The notes beneath the pieces are model-generated. The model did not search any database. It saw only the letters and a program-made list of their open reading frames with translations, and was not told the origin of the DNA. From contig JAUPKQ010000095.1 of the NCBI GenBank assembly GCA_030837345.1, positions 1-49,777 of the forward strand: 49,777 nt of DNA. Direction: 5' to 3'. Below are positions 26,603 through 47,092 of this stretch, one piece after another (position 1 is the first letter of the stretch; every line of letters begins with the position of its first letter). The translations under genes and the position numbers were made by a program. This DNA comes from Actinomycetota bacterium. GTDB taxonomy: Bacteria; Actinomycetota; Actinomycetes; Actinomycetales; Kineosporiaceae.

Positions 26603-26628
26603 GCCGCCGTTCAGCCGAGGACGGCGGC
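26603..26628. terminator. Hairpin between convergent amidoligase and glycosyltransferase genes
   Basis: 8-bp perfect arms GCCGCCGT (26603-26610) and ACGGCGGC (26621-26628), 10-nt loop. The right arm lies within the last codons of the minus-strand gene. Confidence 0.5.
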
Positions 26629-28290
26629 GGTCGCGAGGTCGTTCCGGCACGGGATCCCGCACGGGCGGCCGGGACTCGCCGTCCGGTACCAGGCGCCGTG
26701 GGAGGCTGACGACGCCACGGTGTACGAGGTGTTGAGCATCGCCGCCACCTTGGGAGCCCGTTCGGGGATGATCGACCGGTAGCGCGACCACTCGTACTCC
26801 ACGTAGATCCATTCCGGCCGGGCCGCCACGAGTTCCCGTTCGAGCTCCGCCCAGACCCGCCGGGGTTTCGCGTCGGCGTCCCAGCCGGAGATGGAGATCG
26901 CGGGATGGACGTCGAGCAACTCGTAGACGTGAGGGTGACCGAAGACGTACACGGCGGTGCCGGGAGCGATCCGTCCCCGGAGATCACGGACCTTCCGGTC
27001 GTGGTCCTGGCCGAGCAGGACGAAGTCGCGGCTGTTCCGCGCGTCCTCCCCCAGTCCCCAGCCGGGGATCTCCGACCGGTTGGCGAGCAAGCGCTGCGGC
27101 CCCCACAACATCGGCAGCGACAGGACGACGGCGGTTCCCAGGACGATCGCCCTCCGGACGGCGCGAACCCGGCCCTCCCTCGCCGTCCACCGCCACACGA
27201 CGTCGGCCCCGACGACGGCGAGCAGGCCGACCGGAGCGGCGAGCATGAGCATCCGGTACTGCCCCGGGTACTGCGGCCAGGCCAGGAGCACGGCGACCAG
27301 CGCCGTCCCGGCGAAGGTCGCCTCGCGGATGACGGTGCCCCGGCGGCGTGCGGTGAGAAGGGCCGCGACGGAGAGCGGCAGCAGCGGGTTGACCACGAGG
27401 TCCTTCCAGCGGAACCACCCCTTGGACACGTTCAGCTCGCGGGCCGTCTCCAGGGGGATCGTCACCGAGGTGATCCAGGTGTGCTCGAGCGCGCCGTTCC
27501 ACGCGAAGTACCCCACCGCGCCGAGCAGGACGGCGGCGCACCCGGCGGCCGCGGCGGCGATCCGGATCAGTCTGGCCCGGTGCGGGACCCGCGAGACCAG
27601 GAGCGCGCCAGCGAACAACACCGCGGGAAGCGGCAGGTACACCAGCTTCAGCAGCCCGACGACACCGGCCACCGCCCCAGCCGCGCCCCAGCGGAGCACC
27701 GGCCGCGCCGGGCCGCCCGCCGGCCGTGAGGGCCAGGTGAGGGCGACGACGGCGACCAGCCAGACGTTCAGGAGCCCTTCGATCTGGGTCACCCCCGCAC
27801 GGTGGGTCAGCAGCAGGTAGCTGCCGAGCACCAGAACCGGGGAGAGGAGCCGCGCGCCAGGCCCCACCCTCCAGGAACACGCCAGCCGCCAGACGAGGAG
27901 GCCACCGAGGAGGACCCCGGCGATCTCCAGCAGGCGAGGCCCGACGACGTCGAGGTGGAGCGCCAGCCCGAGCTGGAAGAACCAGTAGATCCCGGGCTGC
28001 TTGACGTCCCAGAAATCGCGGTGGTAGATCGCGCCCTCGGCCATCCTCCGGGCACCCACCTCGAAGGTGACCTGGTCACCGTCTCCCGGGAACCACAGGT
28101 ACACGAGACAGATCGGGATCAGCAGGGCCTCCGCCGCGACGAGCGACCGCCATCCCGGGCCCGGCAGGGCCCGACTCCCGGCCCGCCGGTCCCGGGTCCT
28201 GCGATCCGTTGTCCCGCGACCCGTTGTCCCGCGATCCGTTGTCACCGTAACCGTGGTCGTAGGGACTGGATCCACACGATGACTGTTCAC
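26611..28290 (-). CDS. GT-C fold membrane glycosyltransferase-like protein
   Basis: 559 residues with about ten transmembrane helices. The first luminal loop has DQVTFEVGARRMAEGAIYHR followed by DFWDVKQPGIYWFF, the Asp-rich loop and aromatic block typical of family-39-like (ArnT/PMT) polyprenyl-sugar-dependent transferases. The last 120 residues form a soluble extracellular domain (VYVFGHPHVYELLDV, EWIYVEYEW). The open frame extends to 28734, across the next gene, so the start is set at GTG 28290, with GTG 28275 as an alternative. The N-terminus is Thr/Arg/Asp repeats encoded by a 15-nt repeat (about 28196-28245). Donor and acceptor unknown. Confidence 0.75.
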   Translation of the reverse strand: MNSHRVDPVPTTTVTVTTDRGTTGRGTTDRRTRDRRAGSRALPGPGWRSLVAAEALLIPICLVYLWFPGDGDQVTFEVGARRMAEGAIYHRDFWDVKQPGIYWFFQLGLALHLDVVGPRLLEIAGVLLGGLLVWRLACSWRVGPGARLLSPVLVLGSYLLLTHRAGVTQIEGLLNVWLVAVVALTWPSRPAGGPARPVLRWGAAGAVAGVVGLLKLVYLPLPAVLFAGALLVSRVPHRARLIRIAAAAAGCAAVLLGAVGYFAWNGALEHTWITSVTIPLETARELNVSKGWFRWKDLVVNPLLPLSVAALLTARRRGTVIREATFAGTALVAVLLAWPQYPGQYRMLMLAAPVGLLAVVGADVVWRWTAREGRVRAVRRAIVLGTAVVLSLPMLWGPQRLLANRSEIPGWGLGEDARNSRDFVLLGQDHDRKVRDLRGRIAPGTAVYVFGHPHVYELLDVHPAISISGWDADAKPRRVWAELERELVAARPEWIYVEYEWSRYRSIIPERAPKVAAMLNTSYTVASSASHGAWYRTASPGRPCGIPCRNDLATAAVLG

Positions 28291-28414
28291 GACAATCCCC
28301 ACACCGGAAATCAGACGTCCCAAGCAGGCACAGTAGTGGACGCTTCTGCCGGGGAGGGCTTCCTCCGCCGTCCGCACCGGCGCACCCGTGCCGTCGCACG
28401 GCATCATCGACGCC

Positions 28415-30397
28415 ATGCCAGGACGCGACAGACCAGGACGCGACAGGCCCGGACGCGGCACCTCCTCGGGAGGCGTCGTCCGGCGGATCCGGCGAGCGGT
28501 GGCGACGGGCCTCGTCGTCCTCGCGCTGGCGACCGGGTGGGTCACCGCCCAGGACCACGAGGCCAACCAGAAGATCGAGATCCTGCGCTCGGCAACCCGT
28601 GACGCCGTCCGGACCGGCGAGGTCGAGGTCCTGAAACGTCTGGCCTCCGGCGGACGGATCGAGGCGGCCGACCTCGCCGACGTCGCGGCCTTCGTCGCGT
28701 CCCGCGGCGACGGCTCGGACTTCCGGATGGCCACGGTCCTGCGCGCGGCCTACAGCTACGGCGGTACCTTCCCTCCCGAGGTCGAGCGCGCTGTCCGGGA
28801 GATGGTCGTGGGCTTCCGTTACTGGATGACCGAGCCCGGCACCACCCCCGCCGTCTACTGGAGCGAGAACCACCAGATCCTCTTCTCCGGCGCCGAGTTC
28901 CTCGCCGGACGCCGGTACCCGGCCGCCCGGTTCGCCGACGGGCGGACCGGCGAGGACCACGCACGGGACGCGCGGGGAAGGATCTGGTTCTGGCTGGACC
29001 AGCGATGCCGCTTCGGGTTCTCGGAGTGGAACTCGCACTACTACACCCAGGACCTCGCGGCACTGGCCAACCTCGTCGACTTCGCCGGGGACGACGAGAT
29101 CGTCCGCAGGGCGACCGCCGTGACGGACCTTCTCTTCTTCGACATGGCGACCCAGTCGTTCCGGACGACCTTCATCGCGACGAGCGGCAGGCTCTACGAG
29201 AACAACAAGAGATACGGCGACACCGGGGTGAACCGCATCATGCGGTGGGCATTCCTCGGATCGGCCGAAGCGGCGTCCGCCGAGGGAATCGAGATCAACG
29301 TCGTCTCCAGCACGTACAAGGTTCCTCCGGTCCTTCGGGCCATCGCCCTCGACCCCGGTGACGCCGTCGTCCAGGCGTCGTACGGAAGGGACCTTCCGGA
29401 ACTGGACGACGACCGTTCCCTGTCGGCCGGGGAGCACCGGATCATGGCGCTCTGGGGCATGCAGGCCTTCACCAATCCCGAGGCCCTCGGTCCCTCACTG
29501 CGGTACGCCCGGGCGCACTCCCTGTTCTCGAATCCCTACCTCGCGCCGTTGCGGCAGCTGAACTACCGCGCCCTCCTGGTCCCGGGCGTCCTCCCGCTGA
29601 CCAGTACGGCCCTGGACCTCCCCACCGACGGGACCGTTCTGACCCGTGCGAACACCTATACGTTCCGGACGCCCGACTACACCATGTCCACGACCCAGGC
29701 CTACCGCCCGGGAGAGTTCGGCGACCAGCACCACATCTTCGGAATGACCTTCGCCGACGGTGTCACCCTCCTCCACACCCATCCCGCCGTCCTGCCGGGG
29801 GAACCCCAGCCGAACGGGAGCTCCCCCGGATACTGGACGGGGACAGGCATCCTCCCCCTCTCCTGCCAGGAGCGTTCGGTCAATCTCTCCCTGTACCGGC
29901 TGCCGTCGGGCCCGGGACGCGGACGTCGCCCGCTGCTGACGTTCACCCATCTCCATCTCCCTCTCTCCCGCTTCTCCCGTGTCGTCCACGAGGACAAGCG
30001 GCTCTTCCTCCAGTACGGCGAGGCACTGGTCGCCGTGACCGGGACGAGCCGGCTGCGTCTCGCGGACTCCGAGGTGGTCCAGGAAGGAAGGCAGACGTCC
30101 TGGATCACCGAGGCGAGTACCACCCGCACGGAGACCTTCGAGGCCTTCGCGGACAGAATCCGGAAATCGGCCGTGTCGTCGGCTGAGGGAACCGTCGCCT
30201 ACACGTCCGCGGGGCGTCGGTACACGGCGTCGCTCGGTGACGGATGCACGGTCGACGGAACTCATCTCGTCTCCTCCTACCCCCGCCACGAATCGAAGTA
30301 CGCGCAGGTCAAACGGAACCCCACGGAATTCCGGACGGCGTTCGACGGTCAAGAGCTCATCCTCGACTTCGCCCGGGGCACCCGGGAGGTACGGTGA
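28415..30397 (+). CDS. Secreted or membrane-anchored protein, predicted alpha/alpha-toroid, unknown function
   Basis: About 660 residues. A basic N-terminus and one hydrophobic helix (VATGLVVLALATGWV) form a signal anchor. Residues about 70-400 are helical with aromatic blocks YWSENHQILFSGAEFLAG, FGFSEWNSHYYTQDL and ENNKRYGDTGVNRIMRW, the look of an alpha/alpha-toroid as in polysaccharide lyases and glycosidases; the C-terminal 250 residues look beta-rich (VAVTGTSRLRL, TVAYTSAGRRYTASLGDG). Lyase-like folds are my inference; no named family is recognised. Starts at GTG 28388 or ATG 28415 lack a ribosome site. It is divergent from the glycosyltransferase gene, sharing a short promoter region. 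Confidence 0.7.
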   Translation: MPGRDRPGRDRPGRGTSSGGVVRRIRRAVATGLVVLALATGWVTAQDHEANQKIEILRSATRDAVRTGEVEVLKRLASGGRIEAADLADVAAFVASRGDGSDFRMATVLRAAYSYGGTFPPEVERAVREMVVGFRYWMTEPGTTPAVYWSENHQILFSGAEFLAGRRYPAARFADGRTGEDHARDARGRIWFWLDQRCRFGFSEWNSHYYTQDLAALANLVDFAGDDEIVRRATAVTDLLFFDMATQSFRTTFIATSGRLYENNKRYGDTGVNRIMRWAFLGSAEAASAEGIEINVVSSTYKVPPVLRAIALDPGDAVVQASYGRDLPELDDDRSLSAGEHRIMALWGMQAFTNPEALGPSLRYARAHSLFSNPYLAPLRQLNYRALLVPGVLPLTSTALDLPTDGTVLTRANTYTFRTPDYTMSTTQAYRPGEFGDQHHIFGMTFADGVTLLHTHPAVLPGEPQPNGSSPGYWTGTGILPLSCQERSVNLSLYRLPSGPGRGRRPLLTFTHLHLPLSRFSRVVHEDKRLFLQYGEALVAVTGTSRLRLADSEVVQEGRQTSWITEASTTRTETFEAFADRIRKSAVSSAEGTVAYTSAGRRYTASLGDGCTVDGTHLVSSYPRHESKYAQVKRNPTEFRTAFDGQELILDFARGTREVR

Positions 30398-30483: not shown

Positions 30484-31473
30484 ATGGATAGATCTCGACG
30501 CATTCACGACCACGGGACGTCGAATCCCGACCTCGATCCGACGGTGCCCCACTTCGCCGCGCCCGACCCCGATCGCACGATGCCCCATCTCGCCGGGCCC
30601 GACCCCGATCGCACGGTGCCCTACCTCGCCGCGCCCACCTCGATGTCGCTCACCTCGCTGTCGTCCTCCCCGAAGGTGCCCGACCCTGGAACGCTCGACC
30701 TGAAGGTCATGGCGATGAGGGTCCTCGCCCTGTGGATCCTGCGGCTGCGCATCTCCACGACCCGGATCCTGCTCGTGCTCGTGCTGACCGTCGTGACCGC
30801 GATCATCACGATCATCGGCGCGGGCGCGGTCTTCGCGAAGATCGCGGATGATGTCGTCGACCGGAACGGCGTGTCCGGGTTCGACCCCCGGTTGTCCGGA
30901 TGGGTGGTCGCCCACCGTCCCCCGTCCCTCGTCACCCCTGTCGAGTACCTGACGACCCTCGTCGACCCCCCGGTGCTCCTCGTCCTCAGCCTCCTCGTGG
31001 GCGGATGGCTGGCCTGGCGCCGCGGCACCTTCGTCCCCCTGGTCCTGATGCTGGCGGCCTCCGGCGGGGGCATCGCGATCGGCAGCGCGATGAAGCTCTT
31101 CGTCCAGCGCGAACGGCCTCCGGTCGGCTGGCGGGCCGTCCAGGAGACCGGGTTCTCCTTCCCCTCCTTGCACACTCTCACCGCCACGGCGGCCTTCGGC
31201 ATGCTCGCCTACCTCTCCCCCCGCGTCTGGTCCCAGCTCCGCCGGACGACGATGGGACTTCTCGCCCTGGCCGGCGCGCTCGCAGCCGGGGGAACCCGGG
31301 TGTTCCTCGCGGTGCACTGGCCCTCCGACGTGGCGGCCTCGTTCGCTCTGGGCACGGCCTGGCTCGCCCTCTTGATCGCCGTCCACACCGTGGCGACCGC
31401 GCTCGCCGCCCGGCGCCCCCCGGCGTCCTGGCTCGAAACCCGGCCGGTCCGCCAACCCCCCGCCCCACGGTGA
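30484..31473 (+). CDS. PAP2-superfamily membrane phosphatase
   Basis: 329 residues, about six transmembrane helices. The three phosphatase motifs are present: KLFVQRERP, PSLHT (PSGH variant with the proton-donor His), and RVFLAVHWPSDV with the nucleophile His. Members remove phosphate from lipids such as phosphatidic acid or undecaprenyl pyrophosphate outside the membrane. The first 50 residues are a disordered 12-residue repeat. ATG at 30484 after AGGGA. The 3' end overlaps the opposite-strand nitroreductase frame by 265 bp. Confidence 0.9.
   Translation: MDRSRRIHDHGTSNPDLDPTVPHFAAPDPDRTMPHLAGPDPDRTVPYLAAPTSMSLTSLSSSPKVPDPGTLDLKVMAMRVLALWILRLRISTTRILLVLVLTVVTAIITIIGAGAVFAKIADDVVDRNGVSGFDPRLSGWVVAHRPPSLVTPVEYLTTLVDPPVLLVLSLLVGGWLAWRRGTFVPLVLMLAASGGGIAIGSAMKLFVQRERPPVGWRAVQETGFSFPSLHTLTATAAFGMLAYLSPRVWSQLRRTTMGLLALAGALAAGGTRVFLAVHWPSDVAASFALGTAWLALLIAVHTVATALAARRPPASWLETRPVRQPPAPR
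30532..30636 (+). repeat. 36-nt tandem repeat in the PAP2 gene
   Basis: Three units of 36 nt, the last two nearly identical, encode (P/L)DPDRT-M/V-P-H/Y-LA-A/G. They create an Asp/Pro-rich cytoplasmic tail of the phosphatase and may vary between strains. Confidence 0.75.
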
Positions 31474-32603
31474 CGGATCGCGGCGATGGCGGGCCTGCTC
31501 GTCAGGAGTGGTTCGCGCCCGCTCCTGATCAGTTGATCGACCGGCAGCCGCACGCTGCGCCGTGGCGGCTGCTCCCGGGGCCTGCCGACGCGCAGCACGA
31601 TGGCGGGGTGTTCGTCCCGCGCGCCGGGGAAGAGCCCGGCGAAGGGCTCGCGGTGTCCGCGCATCACCTCGGCGTAGCGCGGCAGGAAACCCTCGGGTTC
31701 GACGTCGAGTTTCGTCAGGTACTGCGGCAGCACCCCGTACGGCTGCACCGCCAGCTCGCGGGCGGTGGCCGCCAGCCAGAGCCGCTCCATCGCCCGGCCC
31801 GCCTCGACGTAACCCGCCGGCCCGGCCCGGCGCGCCGTCACCAGGCAGACGGCACCGGCCGCGCACAGCTTGGCGGCGAGCTGGCGTGCGACGAAACGGC
31901 CGATCCCGAGATGGCTCACGACCTTCATCACGGAGGGATACCGCAGCAGACGGGCCGCCCCCACCAGGGCGGGTGGCACGCCCAGGCTCGCGAAGTCCAG
32001 GCCGAACCCGGTCTCCTCCACCGAGCGGCGGCTGAACCGCAGGATGTCGAAGAGCTCGTCGTGGAGGGGCCGGTGCTCCAGCCGGATGTAGCTGGAGCGC
32101 GCGTCCATCGACGCCATCAGGCCGAGGTCCGCGGAGCCGCCGATCCAGTGGACCCCGGCATCGAACCGGCCCACGGCCTCGGTGAGCTCACCGAGCGTCG
32201 TCGGGTCGAGCGGCGTCTCGTCGTACGGTCCCCGGTTCGTCTCACGCCGCTCGATCCACCCGGCGAGCGGATGGCCGGAGCGGGAACCGGAACCGGAGCC
32301 TCCGGGCGACAGCCGTACCCTCACGGGCTCCCGGTCGCCGGAGGTGCCGTCGCCGAGACCGCCGTCGTCGACCGTGACGCCGAACCCCTCGTCCTCGGCC
32401 GCGATCACGAGGTTCTCGACCGCGGCGCCCAGGCCGACCCAGGCGAACATCGCGTCGACGTCGGTCGGCAGGACCCGGCCCGGTTCGACGTACACGTCGA
32501 CCACGTCGCCCGCGGCGGCGAACGACCACGCCTGCATGTTGTCCGCCGAGGGGGCCCGGGAGGCAGCGGTGACCAGCCGGTGAAGGAGCGCTTCGGAGAT
32601 CAT
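31209..32603 (-). CDS. Nitroreductase-family (Acg-like) protein with run-on C-terminus
   Basis: 464 residues; the recognisable part is about residues 1-360. It starts LLHRLVTAASRAPSADNMQAWSF, the FMN-binding block of nitroreductase-like proteins, with WIERRETNRGPYDETPLD and later PYGVLPQYLTKLD. Typical homologues are near 330-360 residues. Here the frame lacks a stop at the expected end (about 31480) and continues 90 residues antisense to the PAP2 gene, giving Arg/Ala-rich sequence without homology. The ATG at 32603 has GGGAAAGG upstream, overlapping the stop of the preceding fusion gene 16 nt away, so the two form one operon. Substrate unknown. Confidence 0.75.
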   Translation of the reverse strand: MISEALLHRLVTAASRAPSADNMQAWSFAAAGDVVDVYVEPGRVLPTDVDAMFAWVGLGAAVENLVIAAEDEGFGVTVDDGGLGDGTSGDREPVRVRLSPGGSGSGSRSGHPLAGWIERRETNRGPYDETPLDPTTLGELTEAVGRFDAGVHWIGGSADLGLMASMDARSSYIRLEHRPLHDELFDILRFSRRSVEETGFGLDFASLGVPPALVGAARLLRYPSVMKVVSHLGIGRFVARQLAAKLCAAGAVCLVTARRAGPAGYVEAGRAMERLWLAATARELAVQPYGVLPQYLTKLDVEPEGFLPRYAEVMRGHREPFAGLFPGARDEHPAIVLRVGRPREQPPRRSVRLPVDQLIRSGREPLLTSRPAIAAIRHRGAGGWRTGRVSSQDAGGRRAASAVATVWTAIKRASQAVPRANEAATSEGQCTARNTRVPPAASAPARARSPIVVRRSWDQTRGER

Positions 32604-32619: not shown

Positions 32620-35106
32620 TCAGGCGGCCGGGAGAGGCCAGGTGACCGGCCCCGGCCAGGTCGGCGTCCGCATGGCGTCGAACACCGTGAGCGCGCCCCG
32701 CAGCATCGTTTCGTCGTGGGTGGCCATCAGGCTGATCCGCAGCATCTCCTGGTGCCTCGGGACCGCCGGATGGGTGACCGGGTTGACGAAGACGCCGCCG
32801 GCGAGCAGACGGTGGAAGGCTGCCAGGGCGAGCAGTTCGTTGCCGCAGAACACAGGCAGGATCGCGTTGCCGTGATCGTCGACCCGGTAGCCGAGCGCGC
32901 GCAGCCCTCCCGCCAGGAAGCGGGCGCCCGCCAGCAGATGTCGGCGCCGTTCGGGCTCGGCGTCGATGAGGTCGAGGGCGGCGAGCGCCGCCGCCACGGA
33001 CGCCGGGGGCAGGCTCGCCGAGAACAGGTGCGAGCGCGTCGTGTGCCTCAGGGTGTCGATGATCTTGCGGTCGCCGGCGACGAACCCTCCGATCGACGCC
33101 AGTGACTTGCTGAGCGTCCCCATGACGAGGTCGACCTCGCCGAGCAGCCCGAAGTGCTCGGCGACCCCGCGACCGCCAGGCCCCATCACCCCGATGGCGT
33201 GGGACTCGTCGAGCAGCAACCGGGCACCGTGGGCACGGACCAGCCGGACGATCCGGGGCAGGTCGACGACCGTTCCCTCCATGCTGAACAACGAGTCGGT
33301 GACCACGAGCGTGCGACGGCCGGAGCACCCGGCGAGTTCCCCGGCGAGGGCGTCGGTGTCGGCGTGCCGGAAACGCACCAGGGTGGCTCCCGACAGCCGG
33401 GCGCCGTCGATCAGGCTGGCGTGGCACCGTTCGTCCATCACGACGACGTCGCCCTTGCGGACGAGCGCCTGCACCACCCCGACGTTGGTCTGGTATCCCG
33501 TGGAACAGAGCAGGGCGTCGTCCTTGCCGGTGAACCGGGCCAGCCGGCGGGCGAGGCCGACGTGCAGGTCGAGCGTGCCGTTGAGCATCGGAGACCCCGA
33601 ACAGCCGCTGCCGTACCGGTCGATCGCGGCCCGGGCGGCCTCCTTGACCCGTGGATGGGTGGCGAGGCCGAGGTAGGAGTTGGTGCCGAGCATGATGACG
33701 TCCCGGCCCTCATGCTTGACGACCGGCTCCTGGGCGCTCTCGAACACCGGACAGAACGGGTACAGATCCGCGATCCGAGACACGTCGGCACGGGTGTACC
33801 GACGCTGTCTGACGAACGGGTCTCGCGGGTCGCCGACGGCGTCGAGGATCCCGGCGTCCTCATCGGTCGTCGCCGTGGCGGGAGGGCGGCCGGCGAAGGT
33901 CCGGTGGTGGTTCGCCGGCTTCTCGATCCCGGTGCGGAAGAGTTCGGCGTAGGCGGCCCCGTGTTCGGGCTGCTTGAAGGCCTTGATCAGGTAGATGACC
34001 GGGTCGATGTCCGCTCCGAGCGACGTCTTGGCGTCATAGGTGGTGATCCCGAGGTTCAGGCTCTTCGCCCCTCGCTCGCACGCCACCCGGATCACCTCCA
34101 GGAGCAGGTTCGGGTAGAGCGCGTAGACGTGACGGAAGGCGTCGTCCAGGCCTTCCGCGACGCCTACGTACTCGTCGTCCCCGACGAGGCCCAGTCCGAA
34201 GGCGACGATGACGTCGTCCCGTTTGATCGCGACGACGTGGCTACGACCTGGTAGGTGTTTCGCCATCGCGGTGAAGTAGGCGGGGGTCAGCCGCTCGTGC
34301 TCGTACTCGCCGTGCCGCCGGGCGACCTGGCCCCACAGATCCGCCAGCCGCTCCGCGTGCGGAGCGTAGTCGTCGATCACCTCGACAGTGATCTCCGGGA
34401 CGTCGAACGCGACCCGGGCGCGGCGGAGGTTCTTGCGTTTCTTGTGCTTGAGGGCGGCGAGGTAGCCGTCGAGACTCGTCCACCTCAGGGCGAGCCTCGC
34501 GATCGGGAAACCGGGTGACGGGTGGTACCCCTCCCCCTCGAGCGCCCGGAATTCCGGGTACCGGTCCGCCGGGATGTCACGGATCACCCCCAGGTCCGCG
34601 TTCTCCACCCGGGCGAGTTCGTCGAGGTGACGGGCCAGCGTCCGCACGAACGCCTCGCCCAGGCCGGGGAGGGTCTCGACCGTCGTCCCGAGGGAGGCGA
34701 CATGCCCCACTTCGAGAAGCCGCACCGTCAGGAACCCCGGTCGCCACGCCTTCACCGTGGCCAGCACCTCGGGCGGATCCTGAAAGGTGAGTTTCGTCAG
34801 GTCCAGGTCCATCGCGAAGCAGTACGCGATGCCGACAGGGCTGCCACCACGGAACCCGATCAGGTAGGAGGGGCGGAGATCGTTGATACGCGACTCCTCG
34901 ACGGCGCGCAGGTGAGCGGCTTCGAGCCCGACGACCGCGGTCGGGGCCAGATCGTTCCAGGTGGCGACGGGAACGTCGTCGATCGAGGAGTACCGGACGA
35001 TCTGGATCTCGTCCGGAGGTGAACTCTCGTCGGTGCGCCGGCCATGGTCAACGACAGTCATGCGTTCGACTCTGGACGCCATCCCCACCGGGCGGAATGC
35101 GGACAC
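32620..35106 (-). CDS. Fusion: GNAT-fold acyltransferase plus serine-palmitoyltransferase-like alpha-oxoamine synthase
   Basis: 828 residues. Residues about 30-390 are a double GNAT (FemAB-like) acyltransferase, with KHKKRKNLRRAR and KSLNLGITTYDAKTSLGAD. Residues about 430-820 are a PLP enzyme of the alpha-oxoamine synthase family: YGSGCSGSPMLNGTLDLH, DERCHASLIDGARL (His562 stacks on PLP), DESHAIGVMGPGGRG and TLSKSLASIGGFVAG (Lys667, Schiff base). The SKS-xxS-xGGF form and the GSGCSGS-LNGTLDLH block are those of serine palmitoyltransferase rather than BioF, KBL or ALAS. Bacterial ceramide synthesis uses exactly these two activities as separate proteins. A bifunctional ceramide-type enzyme is inferred. 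GTG at 35106 has GGGGAGGGGGG just upstream. Confidence 0.8.
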   Translation of the reverse strand: MSAFRPVGMASRVERMTVVDHGRRTDESSPPDEIQIVRYSSIDDVPVATWNDLAPTAVVGLEAAHLRAVEESRINDLRPSYLIGFRGGSPVGIAYCFAMDLDLTKLTFQDPPEVLATVKAWRPGFLTVRLLEVGHVASLGTTVETLPGLGEAFVRTLARHLDELARVENADLGVIRDIPADRYPEFRALEGEGYHPSPGFPIARLALRWTSLDGYLAALKHKKRKNLRRARVAFDVPEITVEVIDDYAPHAERLADLWGQVARRHGEYEHERLTPAYFTAMAKHLPGRSHVVAIKRDDVIVAFGLGLVGDDEYVGVAEGLDDAFRHVYALYPNLLLEVIRVACERGAKSLNLGITTYDAKTSLGADIDPVIYLIKAFKQPEHGAAYAELFRTGIEKPANHHRTFAGRPPATATTDEDAGILDAVGDPRDPFVRQRRYTRADVSRIADLYPFCPVFESAQEPVVKHEGRDVIMLGTNSYLGLATHPRVKEAARAAIDRYGSGCSGSPMLNGTLDLHVGLARRLARFTGKDDALLCSTGYQTNVGVVQALVRKGDVVVMDERCHASLIDGARLSGATLVRFRHADTDALAGELAGCSGRRTLVVTDSLFSMEGTVVDLPRIVRLVRAHGARLLLDESHAIGVMGPGGRGVAEHFGLLGEVDLVMGTLSKSLASIGGFVAGDRKIIDTLRHTTRSHLFSASLPPASVAAALAALDLIDAEPERRRHLLAGARFLAGGLRALGYRVDDHGNAILPVFCGNELLALAAFHRLLAGGVFVNPVTHPAVPRHQEMLRISLMATHDETMLRGALTVFDAMRTPTWPGPVTWPLPAA

Positions 35107-45804: not shown

Positions 45805-46183
45805 CGTCACGCGACGTGGGCCCCCTGTGGATTGTGCCCTTCGAGTGCCCGGCGCCGTCGTTCGGGGACCTGGTCGCCAGCCTGCTGACGAAGCTGACAC
45901 CGCCGCTTCGGCGGGCAAGGCTCCCGTCCCATGTCGTCAGCACAGTGCAGGACTGTGCTCCGAAGACCCTTGGGCTTGGTCCCGGATGTAGCAGGGCGCC
46001 GTCCAGTTGTCCTCACACGAGTGACCTGCCATCACGGACCGCCGAGATCGTCCGAGATGCAGGCCGGGGAGCGGGTTTCACTGACAGGGATCCATCTATC
46101 CAGTTACTTACGGTTTAATGTGCCTCACTCCTCGTGTCACACTGTCCCCATTGGTACGGCTTGTGTGGACGTTCGGAGGTGCG
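45805..46183. promoter_or_regulatory. Divergent control region of the receptor-kinase and S-4TM genes
   Basis: 379 bp without a supportable gene. It holds CCGCCG-ctt-CGGCGG (45900-45914), and AGCACAGT-gcagg-ACTGTGCT (45939-45959), a perfect 8-bp inverted repeat that could be an operator. The short plus-strand frame 45816-46118 has no homology that I can see. Confidence 0.45.
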
Positions 46184-47092
46184 ATGACATCCCACCAGCG
46201 GATCAGTCAGTTGCAGAACAACACTCGTTCCATCACCCTCCACAGGGCGATCCGGGTTGCCCACCGCTACACCCAGAGGACTCAGTCGATCAGTCTGGTT
46301 GTGTCTCTAGCGATCGCGTGCCTGGGAGCGCTGGCCAAGGTGGCACACCCACCGCTACTGGCGGTCGCCACCACCATCGGCGCGGCATGGGCGGGCGCCT
46401 ACATGGTCGCGCTATCCCCGCAAGTCGGCCGTTATCTGCGGACCAGCGCAGTCCTTCAGGAGATGCTGGATACCACCCTGTTCGGGACGACCTGGAACTC
46501 TGTTCTCGTCGGAGAACAGTTGCCTGAGGATGAGGTGAGTCGACTCAGCCGGCGTTTTCGTGGGGACGAAGCGTCGCTGCGTGACTACTACCTTGTGGCA
46601 GCGGTCGACGCCCCCTACGATGTGCTCTTCTGCTTGGAGCAGAATCTGGCCTGGGGGTCCCGCATCCGTCGTCGGTTCGCCGACGTACTGCTGGGCTTCG
46701 TTGCAGTTTGGTGTGTGATGGGCGTCATCGTTGGCATAGTACTCGGAAGCACCGTCGGCAATCTGGTGAACGCATGGTTCGTGCCTTCCTTGGGCCTTCT
46801 ACTGTCCTGCTCGGACATTGCACGCGTCCAGATCCTCACCACTCGCGAGCGTATGCGGGTGGTCAGGCTGGTGCGAGCGGTAATGGAGGATCCATCGTCG
46901 CCGATCCTCGACAACGACGAGGCATTTGCCGTGTTCTCCCGGCAGGTTCAGGACGTGCTGTTCTTGGCTCGCAGCCAACAATCACGCACACCGCAGTGGT
47001 TCTTTCGCCGCTTTCACGACGTCGACATGGCAGACTTCCGTTTCAAGATGCAGGAATTGGAGCGGAGGGCCAGCCAAGGGCTCCATCACTGA
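46184..47092 (+). CDS. S-4TM family putative pore-forming effector
   Basis: 302 residues, four transmembrane helices (about 36-52, 57-77, 168-190, 194-214) in two hairpins. Between them a cytoplasmic domain holds the family block LQEMLDTTLFGTTWNSVLVG, then LSRRFRGDEASLRDYYLVAAVDAPYDVLFCLEQNLAWGSR; helical C-terminus with QVQDVLFLARSQQSRTPQWFFRRF. S-4TM (SMODS-associated 4TM) proteins are predicted membrane-disrupting effectors of nucleotide-signal defence systems, usually next to a CD-NTase. No cyclase is present here. ATG 46184 has GGAGGT 3 nt upstream, spaced acceptably; the frame back to 46118 is untranslated leader. Confidence 0.85.
   Translation: MTSHQRISQLQNNTRSITLHRAIRVAHRYTQRTQSISLVVSLAIACLGALAKVAHPPLLAVATTIGAAWAGAYMVALSPQVGRYLRTSAVLQEMLDTTLFGTTWNSVLVGEQLPEDEVSRLSRRFRGDEASLRDYYLVAAVDAPYDVLFCLEQNLAWGSRIRRRFADVLLGFVAVWCVMGVIVGIVLGSTVGNLVNAWFVPSLGLLLSCSDIARVQILTTRERMRVVRLVRAVMEDPSSPILDNDEAFAVFSRQVQDVLFLARSQQSRTPQWFFRRFHDVDMADFRFKMQELERRASQGLHH

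Follow-up and report, generated by a model that had tools for sequence, protein, structure and literature searches.

The gene at positions 32620–35106 (reverse strand) of the window, by which we mean the whole stretch of 49,777 nucleotides analyzed here (contig JAUPKQ010000095.1, from an actinobacterium of the family Kineosporiaceae), encodes in one open reading frame a protein of 828 amino acids, in which a GNAT-fold acyltransferase is followed by an alpha-oxoamine synthase (AOS). Judged from sequence comparisons, the protein may be bifunctional, one half condensing serine with a fatty acyl thioester and the other, an acyltransferase non-orthologous to the known bacterial ceramide synthase (bCerS), acylating the amino group so that a 3-keto-ceramide results; we give this proposal a little under an even chance.

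Fusion of two catalytic halves in one reading frame

The reading frame started with GTG and had a GC content of 0.718, 0.473, and 0.889 at codon positions 1, 2, and 3, respectively; the high third-position value beside the low second-position value is as expected of a real high-GC gene. In Pfam searches, the N-terminal half (approximately residues 30–400; 33907–35019, reverse strand, as are all parts of the gene) matched PF13480 at residues 222–360 with 48.2 bits (cut-off 22), which places the GNAT core at 34027–34443, and PF04339 FemAB_like at residues 209–315 with 36.2 bits (cut-off 27). The C-terminal half (approximately residues 436–812; 32671–33801) matched PF00155 at residues 469–807 with 175.9 bits (cut-off 19.7). 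An alignment showed a poorly conserved linker between the two halves (approximately residues 401–435; 33802–33906).

When contigs were scanned with the N-terminal half, two further carriers were found; because the scan used exact back-translated patterns, this number of relatives is a lower bound. Propionicicella superfundia DSM 22317 (L027) encoded a complete fusion homologue of 814 amino acids with 73% identity over the full length and 82% identity in the C-terminal half. A metagenome-assembled genome (MAG) of a groundwater actinobacterium (contig JACRAA010000002.1, L026) encoded the N-terminal half, the linker, and approximately the first 115 AOS residues in one frame up to the contig end. 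The N-terminal halves of these two carriers showed 68–69% identity with that of the window, and 67–69% among all three genomes. The complete homologue in P. superfundia and the intact junction in the groundwater MAG indicate that the fusion is not an accident of assembly, and the joining of two catalytic halves in one frame is conserved in the window and P. superfundia, and across the junction in the MAG. The original prediction of a GNAT and AOS fusion in one protein agreed with the reading frame, the Pfam halves, and the two further carriers, and the residues it had named, His562, Lys667, and the block GSGCSGSPMLNGTLDLH, all lay at the positions given for them.

Family relationships of the two halves

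The best match of the C-terminal half in the PDB was the serine palmitoyltransferase (SPT) of Sphingobacterium multivorum (3a2b; E = 2e-95), and its identity with two Bacteroidales SPTs was 45–47%. In a maximum-likelihood tree of 31 rows, the fusion fell within a clade of 14 rows (support 99/97) that also held the two solved SPTs 3a2b and 2jgt, the Bacteroidales SPTs, and the AOSs encoded beside bCerS genes, and the rows of BioF, KBL, and ALAS were all outside this clade. An earlier tree of 35 rows, built without L007, which has an in-frame stop, and L026, which is partial, had a fork supported at 93/86 with the fusion on its SPT side; for the 31-row tree, 13 of its 18 unnamed relatives and the second AOS of the window's genome (L025, a very long branch) were removed and 10 rows were added. 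Approximately unbiased (AU) tests gave p = 0.000519 for a grouping of the fusion with KBL and p = 0.00985 for a grouping with BioF, and these two identities were ruled out by the tests together with the clade placement. Against identity with CqsA stood the NCBIfam score (209 bits against 423 bits for the SPT-CFB model), the tree containing no confirmed CqsA row. The apparent sister of the fusion in the 31-row tree was a Streptomyces AOS (L033), but this join is doubtful because L033 had a long branch and differed at four of the eight active-site positions checked.

In the alignment, Asn476, His562, Asp633, His636, Thr664, Lys667, Ala697, and Arg790 of the fusion agreed residue for residue with S. 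multivorum SPT. Lys667 (33106–33108) is the predicted lysine forming the Schiff base with pyridoxal 5'-phosphate (PLP). Ala697 (33016–33018), 30 residues further on, corresponds by alignment to Lys281 of SulA and to an alanine in Spt, as described in the available part of PMC9304779. This position was alanine in 13 of the 14 clade rows (threonine in L033), asparagine in all seven rows of the KBL group (two named, five unnamed relatives), and threonine in three BioF-type and two ALAS rows. Alanine at this position is not exclusive to the SPT clade, since five AOS rows outside it (L050, L051, L055, L056, and L058) shared the residue. Clade membership and active-site residues together support an assignment of the C-terminal half as SPT-type, in line with the original prediction.

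The N-terminal half had been likened to the GNAT ceramide synthase of Caulobacter, and this part of the prediction found no support. The bCerS references (P0002, P0007, and P0008) were taken from ceramide-type loci of Sphingomonas (L034), Rubrobacter (L032), and Aureispira (L039), and were recognized as such because they are encoded close to Spt- and CerR-type genes and are homologous to one another (33–35% to P0002), not through an alignment with CC_1154. Comparison of the N-terminal half with these references by hhalign gave a probability of 0.65% (E = 0.088). A hidden Markov model (HMM) of the three references scored 342 bits on the Streptomyces bCerS-family protein (L049), used as an independent control, and −1.8 to −2.7 bits on the three fusions (−2.7 bits on that of the window); we quote bits here, the E-values referring to only 15 sequences. 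A bCerS identity was rejected on both results. Conversely, hhalign aligned the N-terminal half with GNATs encoded on plasmids of Agrobacterium, Rhizobium, Nostoc, and Roseomonas over 342 columns with a probability of 99.87% (E = 1.5e-31). By these profile comparisons, the N-terminal half is a GNAT of the PF13480/PF04339 group and not a bCerS, and its acceptor is not deducible from homology.

The loci of the four plasmid relatives, which resemble lipid gene clusters, contained a class III aminotransferase gene nearby in three cases and a glutamate-1-semialdehyde aminomutase gene in the fourth, with a desaturase gene in two clusters and a cyclopropane-fatty-acid synthase gene in one; no AOS gene was found in the four loci examined. 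The loci L028, L029, L030, and L036 combined a GNAT of the PF13480/PF04339 group with a class III aminotransferase or aminomutase, and some of them also contained genes for a desaturase, an arginase, an alpha/beta hydrolase, or EamA; these clusters possibly represent an undescribed aminolipid pathway.

Neighboring genes and distribution

A gene for a flavin oxidoreductase of the nitroreductase family (31209–32603, reverse strand) begins 16 bases downstream of the fusion gene. Its product matched PF00881 with 53.8 bits (cut-off 23.5) and an NCBIfam Acg-family model below the cut-off of that model. Residues 1–363 showed 60% identity with the product of the gene directly after the P. superfundia fusion, and the last 100 residues or so were not conserved. 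In P. superfundia, the ATG of this homologue overlaps the fusion stop codon by 4 bases. A nitroreductase-family gene thus followed the fusion in both loci where the next gene is visible, the L026 contig ending earlier, and the two genes are likely co-transcribed.

The fusion was rare in the genomes searched. A match covering both halves was found in one of 58 related genomes, which was the window's own, and 27 of the 58 had some match to the fusion protein, nearly all to the AOS half; one other genome had a weak match at residues 205–377. The N-terminal half (E = 1e-10) was matched in one of 396 genomes of the phylum, again the window's own, and around each of the other two carriers in two of 146 genomes, both times those same two carriers, the two sets of 146 overlapping. 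A family profile of the N-terminal half matched 31 of the 396 genomes, including the window's own. Among PLSDB plasmids, no place covered 80% of the full fusion protein, and the N-terminal half as query found distant relatives in 44 records, all below 60% identity. Unfused pairs of the two halves were looked for in 29 loci of the N-terminal family, reaching at most 1.5 kb to either side of the match, and in nine longer stretches of 10–20 kb mostly around the same matches, with three further matches falling outside; none of these loci or stretches contained an AOS gene. Among the literature matches listed, whose coverage did not extend to Stankeviciute et al. 2022, no title or abstract opening named a GNAT–SPT fusion, and none of the literature matches listed for lipids of P. 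superfundia contained the species name.

Elsewhere in the window, the gene at 46118–47092 (forward strand) encodes an S_4TM effector protein (PF18159, 220 bits; '4TM' effector in PADLOC, E = 2.9e-56), of the type found in CBASS-like defense, and an open reading frame without a family match (45931–46527) overlaps its 5' side. Two large open reading frames on opposite strands, 28388–30397 (forward) and 26611–28734 (reverse), overlap at one end and had no Pfam match at E = 0.01.

Proposed reaction and comparison with known systems

In the proposed reaction, the C-terminal half would condense serine with a long-chain acyl thioester, with release of CO2, to 3-ketosphinganine. AOS enzymes pair as dimers, and the C-terminal half is expected to do likewise. 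The N-terminal half, as a non-orthologous replacement of bCerS, would then transfer a second acyl chain to the amino group, giving N-acyl-3-ketosphinganine (3-keto-dihydroceramide). As a guess, the product may be oxidized or reduced by the adjacent flavin oxidoreductase, a candidate by position only. We infer serine as substrate, the acyl chain length, the action of the N-terminal half on the product of the C-terminal half, and the lipid itself. Release of N-acyl-3-ketosphinganine would fit the order proposed for Caulobacter, with N-acylation ahead of ketone reduction; according to the available part of PMC11087976, Spt and bCerS are cytoplasmic there, and N-acylation is thought to precede reduction of the ketone.

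Several results weigh against this proposal. The fusion stayed below all three NCBIfam SPT equivalog cut-offs (423, 342, and 278 bits against 640, 500, and 670 bits), and the best of these scores, 423 bits on SPT-CFB (bioF being next with 356 bits), is weak evidence when taken alone, because a true BioF (L054) also reached 393 bits on this model, with 478 bits on bioF. The N-terminal half showed no sequence relation to bCerS by hhalign or HMM, and its relatives elsewhere were not beside AOS genes in the loci examined. No bCerS gene was found by bCerS profile search in the three fusion genomes, which are drafts (that of the window being 97% complete); the positive control for this search was run separately, not on a genome in the same search. 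A Rubrobacter CerR query found weak matches only in all three genomes (19.6–30.1 bits), compared with 118 and 108 bits on the linked CerR controls of Streptomyces and Sphingomonas. No acyl carrier protein (ACP) or acyl-ACP ligase family was found by Pfam among the eight open reading frames around and including the fusion. An AlphaFold2 model built on three close sequences was unusable, with a pLDDT of 39.9. As regards the NCBIfam scores, the fusion was also below the cut-offs of the bioF model (356 against 426 bits) and the KBL models (329 against 460 and 282 against 493 bits). In favor of the proposal, the AOSs encoded beside bCerS and CerR had the same best model, with 444 bits in Rubrobacter (bioF 379) and 377 bits in Streptomyces (bioF 340); the bCerS-linked AOSs of Rubrobacter, Streptomyces, and Aureispira likewise missed the SPT cut-offs, and the SPTs of Parabacteroides and Sphingomonas passed them.

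The scores below the SPT cut-offs, together with the searches that found no bCerS and no convincing CerR in the three fusion genomes, are also consistent with an AOS-based enzyme that makes an N-acyl aminoketone other than a sphingolipid. Another amino acid (glycine or alanine) or another acyl chain would then be condensed, and acylation of the amine by the GNAT would yield a lipid signal or a natural product. AOSs linked to a ketosynthase or fused to a short-chain dehydrogenase/reductase (SDR) occur elsewhere, although those two lay outside the SPT clade, and relatives of the N-terminal half stand in clusters of unknown product. The position of the C-terminal half within the clade of SPT references, with the SPT active-site pattern, argues against this explanation, which we consider rather unlikely.

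The class II aminotransferase domain of the SxtA starter enzyme is presumably an AOS. As described in the available part of PMC3097229, the SxtA chain has a GNAT and then this domain, the same order as in the fusion, which would suit a GNAT half that acts first and prepares or transfers the acyl group for the condensation, like an SxtA-type loading part. Such a role seems improbable, as neither an ACP nor a methyltransferase family was among the Pfam matches of the fusion, and SPT-type enzymes use acyl-CoA or acyl-ACP directly (PMC11324152, in the part available). The match above cut-off to PF04339, which is named 'Peptidogalycan biosysnthesis/recognition', would favor a role of the fusion in cell-wall chemistry, with the N-terminal half as an aminoacyl or peptidyl transferase resembling FemX. 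This is highly improbable, since a sequence search of the PDB with the N-terminal half was empty up to E = 1, giving no sequence link to solved FemX proteins, and two named relatives of this half cluster with desaturase and aminotransferase genes, one of them also with a cyclopropane-fatty-acid synthase gene. To the possibility that both steps run with cysteate in place of serine and lead to a sulfonolipid we give almost no weight: the fusion matched two cysteate-enzyme structures (E = 3e-60 and 6e-65), but Ala697 stands where SulA has Lys281, which in the available part of PMC9304779 lies 30 residues after the PLP lysine Lys251, is replaced by alanine in Spt, and leaves SulA inactive when mutated (K281A), so that the same 667–697 spacing with alanine for lysine speaks against cysteate. 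SulA identity itself was rejected on this one residue, the tree containing no SulA row.

The proposal of serine condensation followed by N-acylation can be extended to a self-contained synthase of the ceramide core, with a GNAT recruited from the PF13480/PF04339 group. Ceramide N-acylation would then have arisen independently once more, in bacteria in which our searches found no bCerS, and the flavin oxidoreductase would possibly replace the ceramide reductase; we regard this as possible but doubtful. The one-protein ceramide synthase of the original prediction stood in its two catalytic halves and its SPT-type C-terminal half and fell in its N-terminal half, which lies outside the bCerS family, and such an enzyme is possible only through a non-orthologous acyltransferase. 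Prediction of bacterial sphingolipid producers rests on spt, bcerS, and cerR as three genes apart from one another (available parts of PMC11334938 and PMC10331486). If the proposal is true, this rule would overlook a fused enzyme whose acyltransferase belongs to a different family, and the range of possible Gram-positive producers would be wider. It would also bear on the question of N-acylation before reduction and offer one protein for measuring the channeling of the long-chain base. The claim is directly testable in P. superfundia DSM 22317, a named strain with the fusion gene.

Compared with known systems, the C-terminal half shares its clade and its active-site residues, including Ala697, with bacterial Spt of the Bacteroidota type (S. 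multivorum 3A2B), from which the fusion differs by its GNAT half, by scores below the NCBIfam equivalog cut-offs, and by the lack of linked cerR, bcerS, or acp genes in our searches. The bCerS of Caulobacter (CC_1154 type) is also a GNAT-type N-acyltransferase working with Spt, with the same expected product class, but it has no detectable sequence relation to the N-terminal half and, in the systems seen, is encoded by a gene of its own. The available part of PMC11324152 describes Spt and bCerS as products of separate genes, with cerS always in an operon other than that of spt; unlike this statement, spt and bCerS genes stood side by side in the plasmid loci of Rubrobacter and Streptomyces. 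On plasmid 1 of Rubrobacter radiotolerans (L032, 7953–13545), genes for an SPT-like AOS, a bCerS-family GNAT, a CerR-like reductase, and an LTA-synthase-family protein lie in a row, with type I-D CRISPR genes close by. On a plasmid of Streptomyces sp. NBC_01001 (L049, 3890–7172), an apparent Gram-positive ceramide operon encodes an SPT-like AOS, a bCerS-family GNAT, and a CerR-like reductase, followed by a condensation-domain protein. A plasmid of Streptomyces sp. NBC_00158 (L051, 1091–5128) encodes a long fusion of an SDR oxidoreductase and an AOS outside the SPT clade. Judging from a phylogeny of the three ceramide genes, several Gram-positive Actinobacteria may be producers (PMC12134224, in the part available). 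The homologous GNATs on the plasmids of Agrobacterium, Rhizobium, Nostoc, and Roseomonas differ from the N-terminal half in being stand-alone proteins, and their genes have class III aminotransferase or aminomutase genes as neighbors. A non-canonical bacterial sphingolipid route is that of PfSgaAB in Pseudomonas fluorescens MYb115, in which SgaB is an AOS with shown SPT activity, whereas the acyl chain comes from an iterative polyketide synthase, and the available part of PMC12134224 mentions no GNAT fusion. The likeness to the SxtA starter enzyme (methyltransferase–GNAT–ACP–class II aminotransferase; PMC3097229, in the part available) is one of domain order, and the fusion differs in having no ACP or methyltransferase family (Pfam, E = 0.01). 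SulA, the cysteate acyl-ACP transferase, has the AOS fold and most active-site residues in common with the C-terminal half, and differs in having Lys281 at the position of Ala697.
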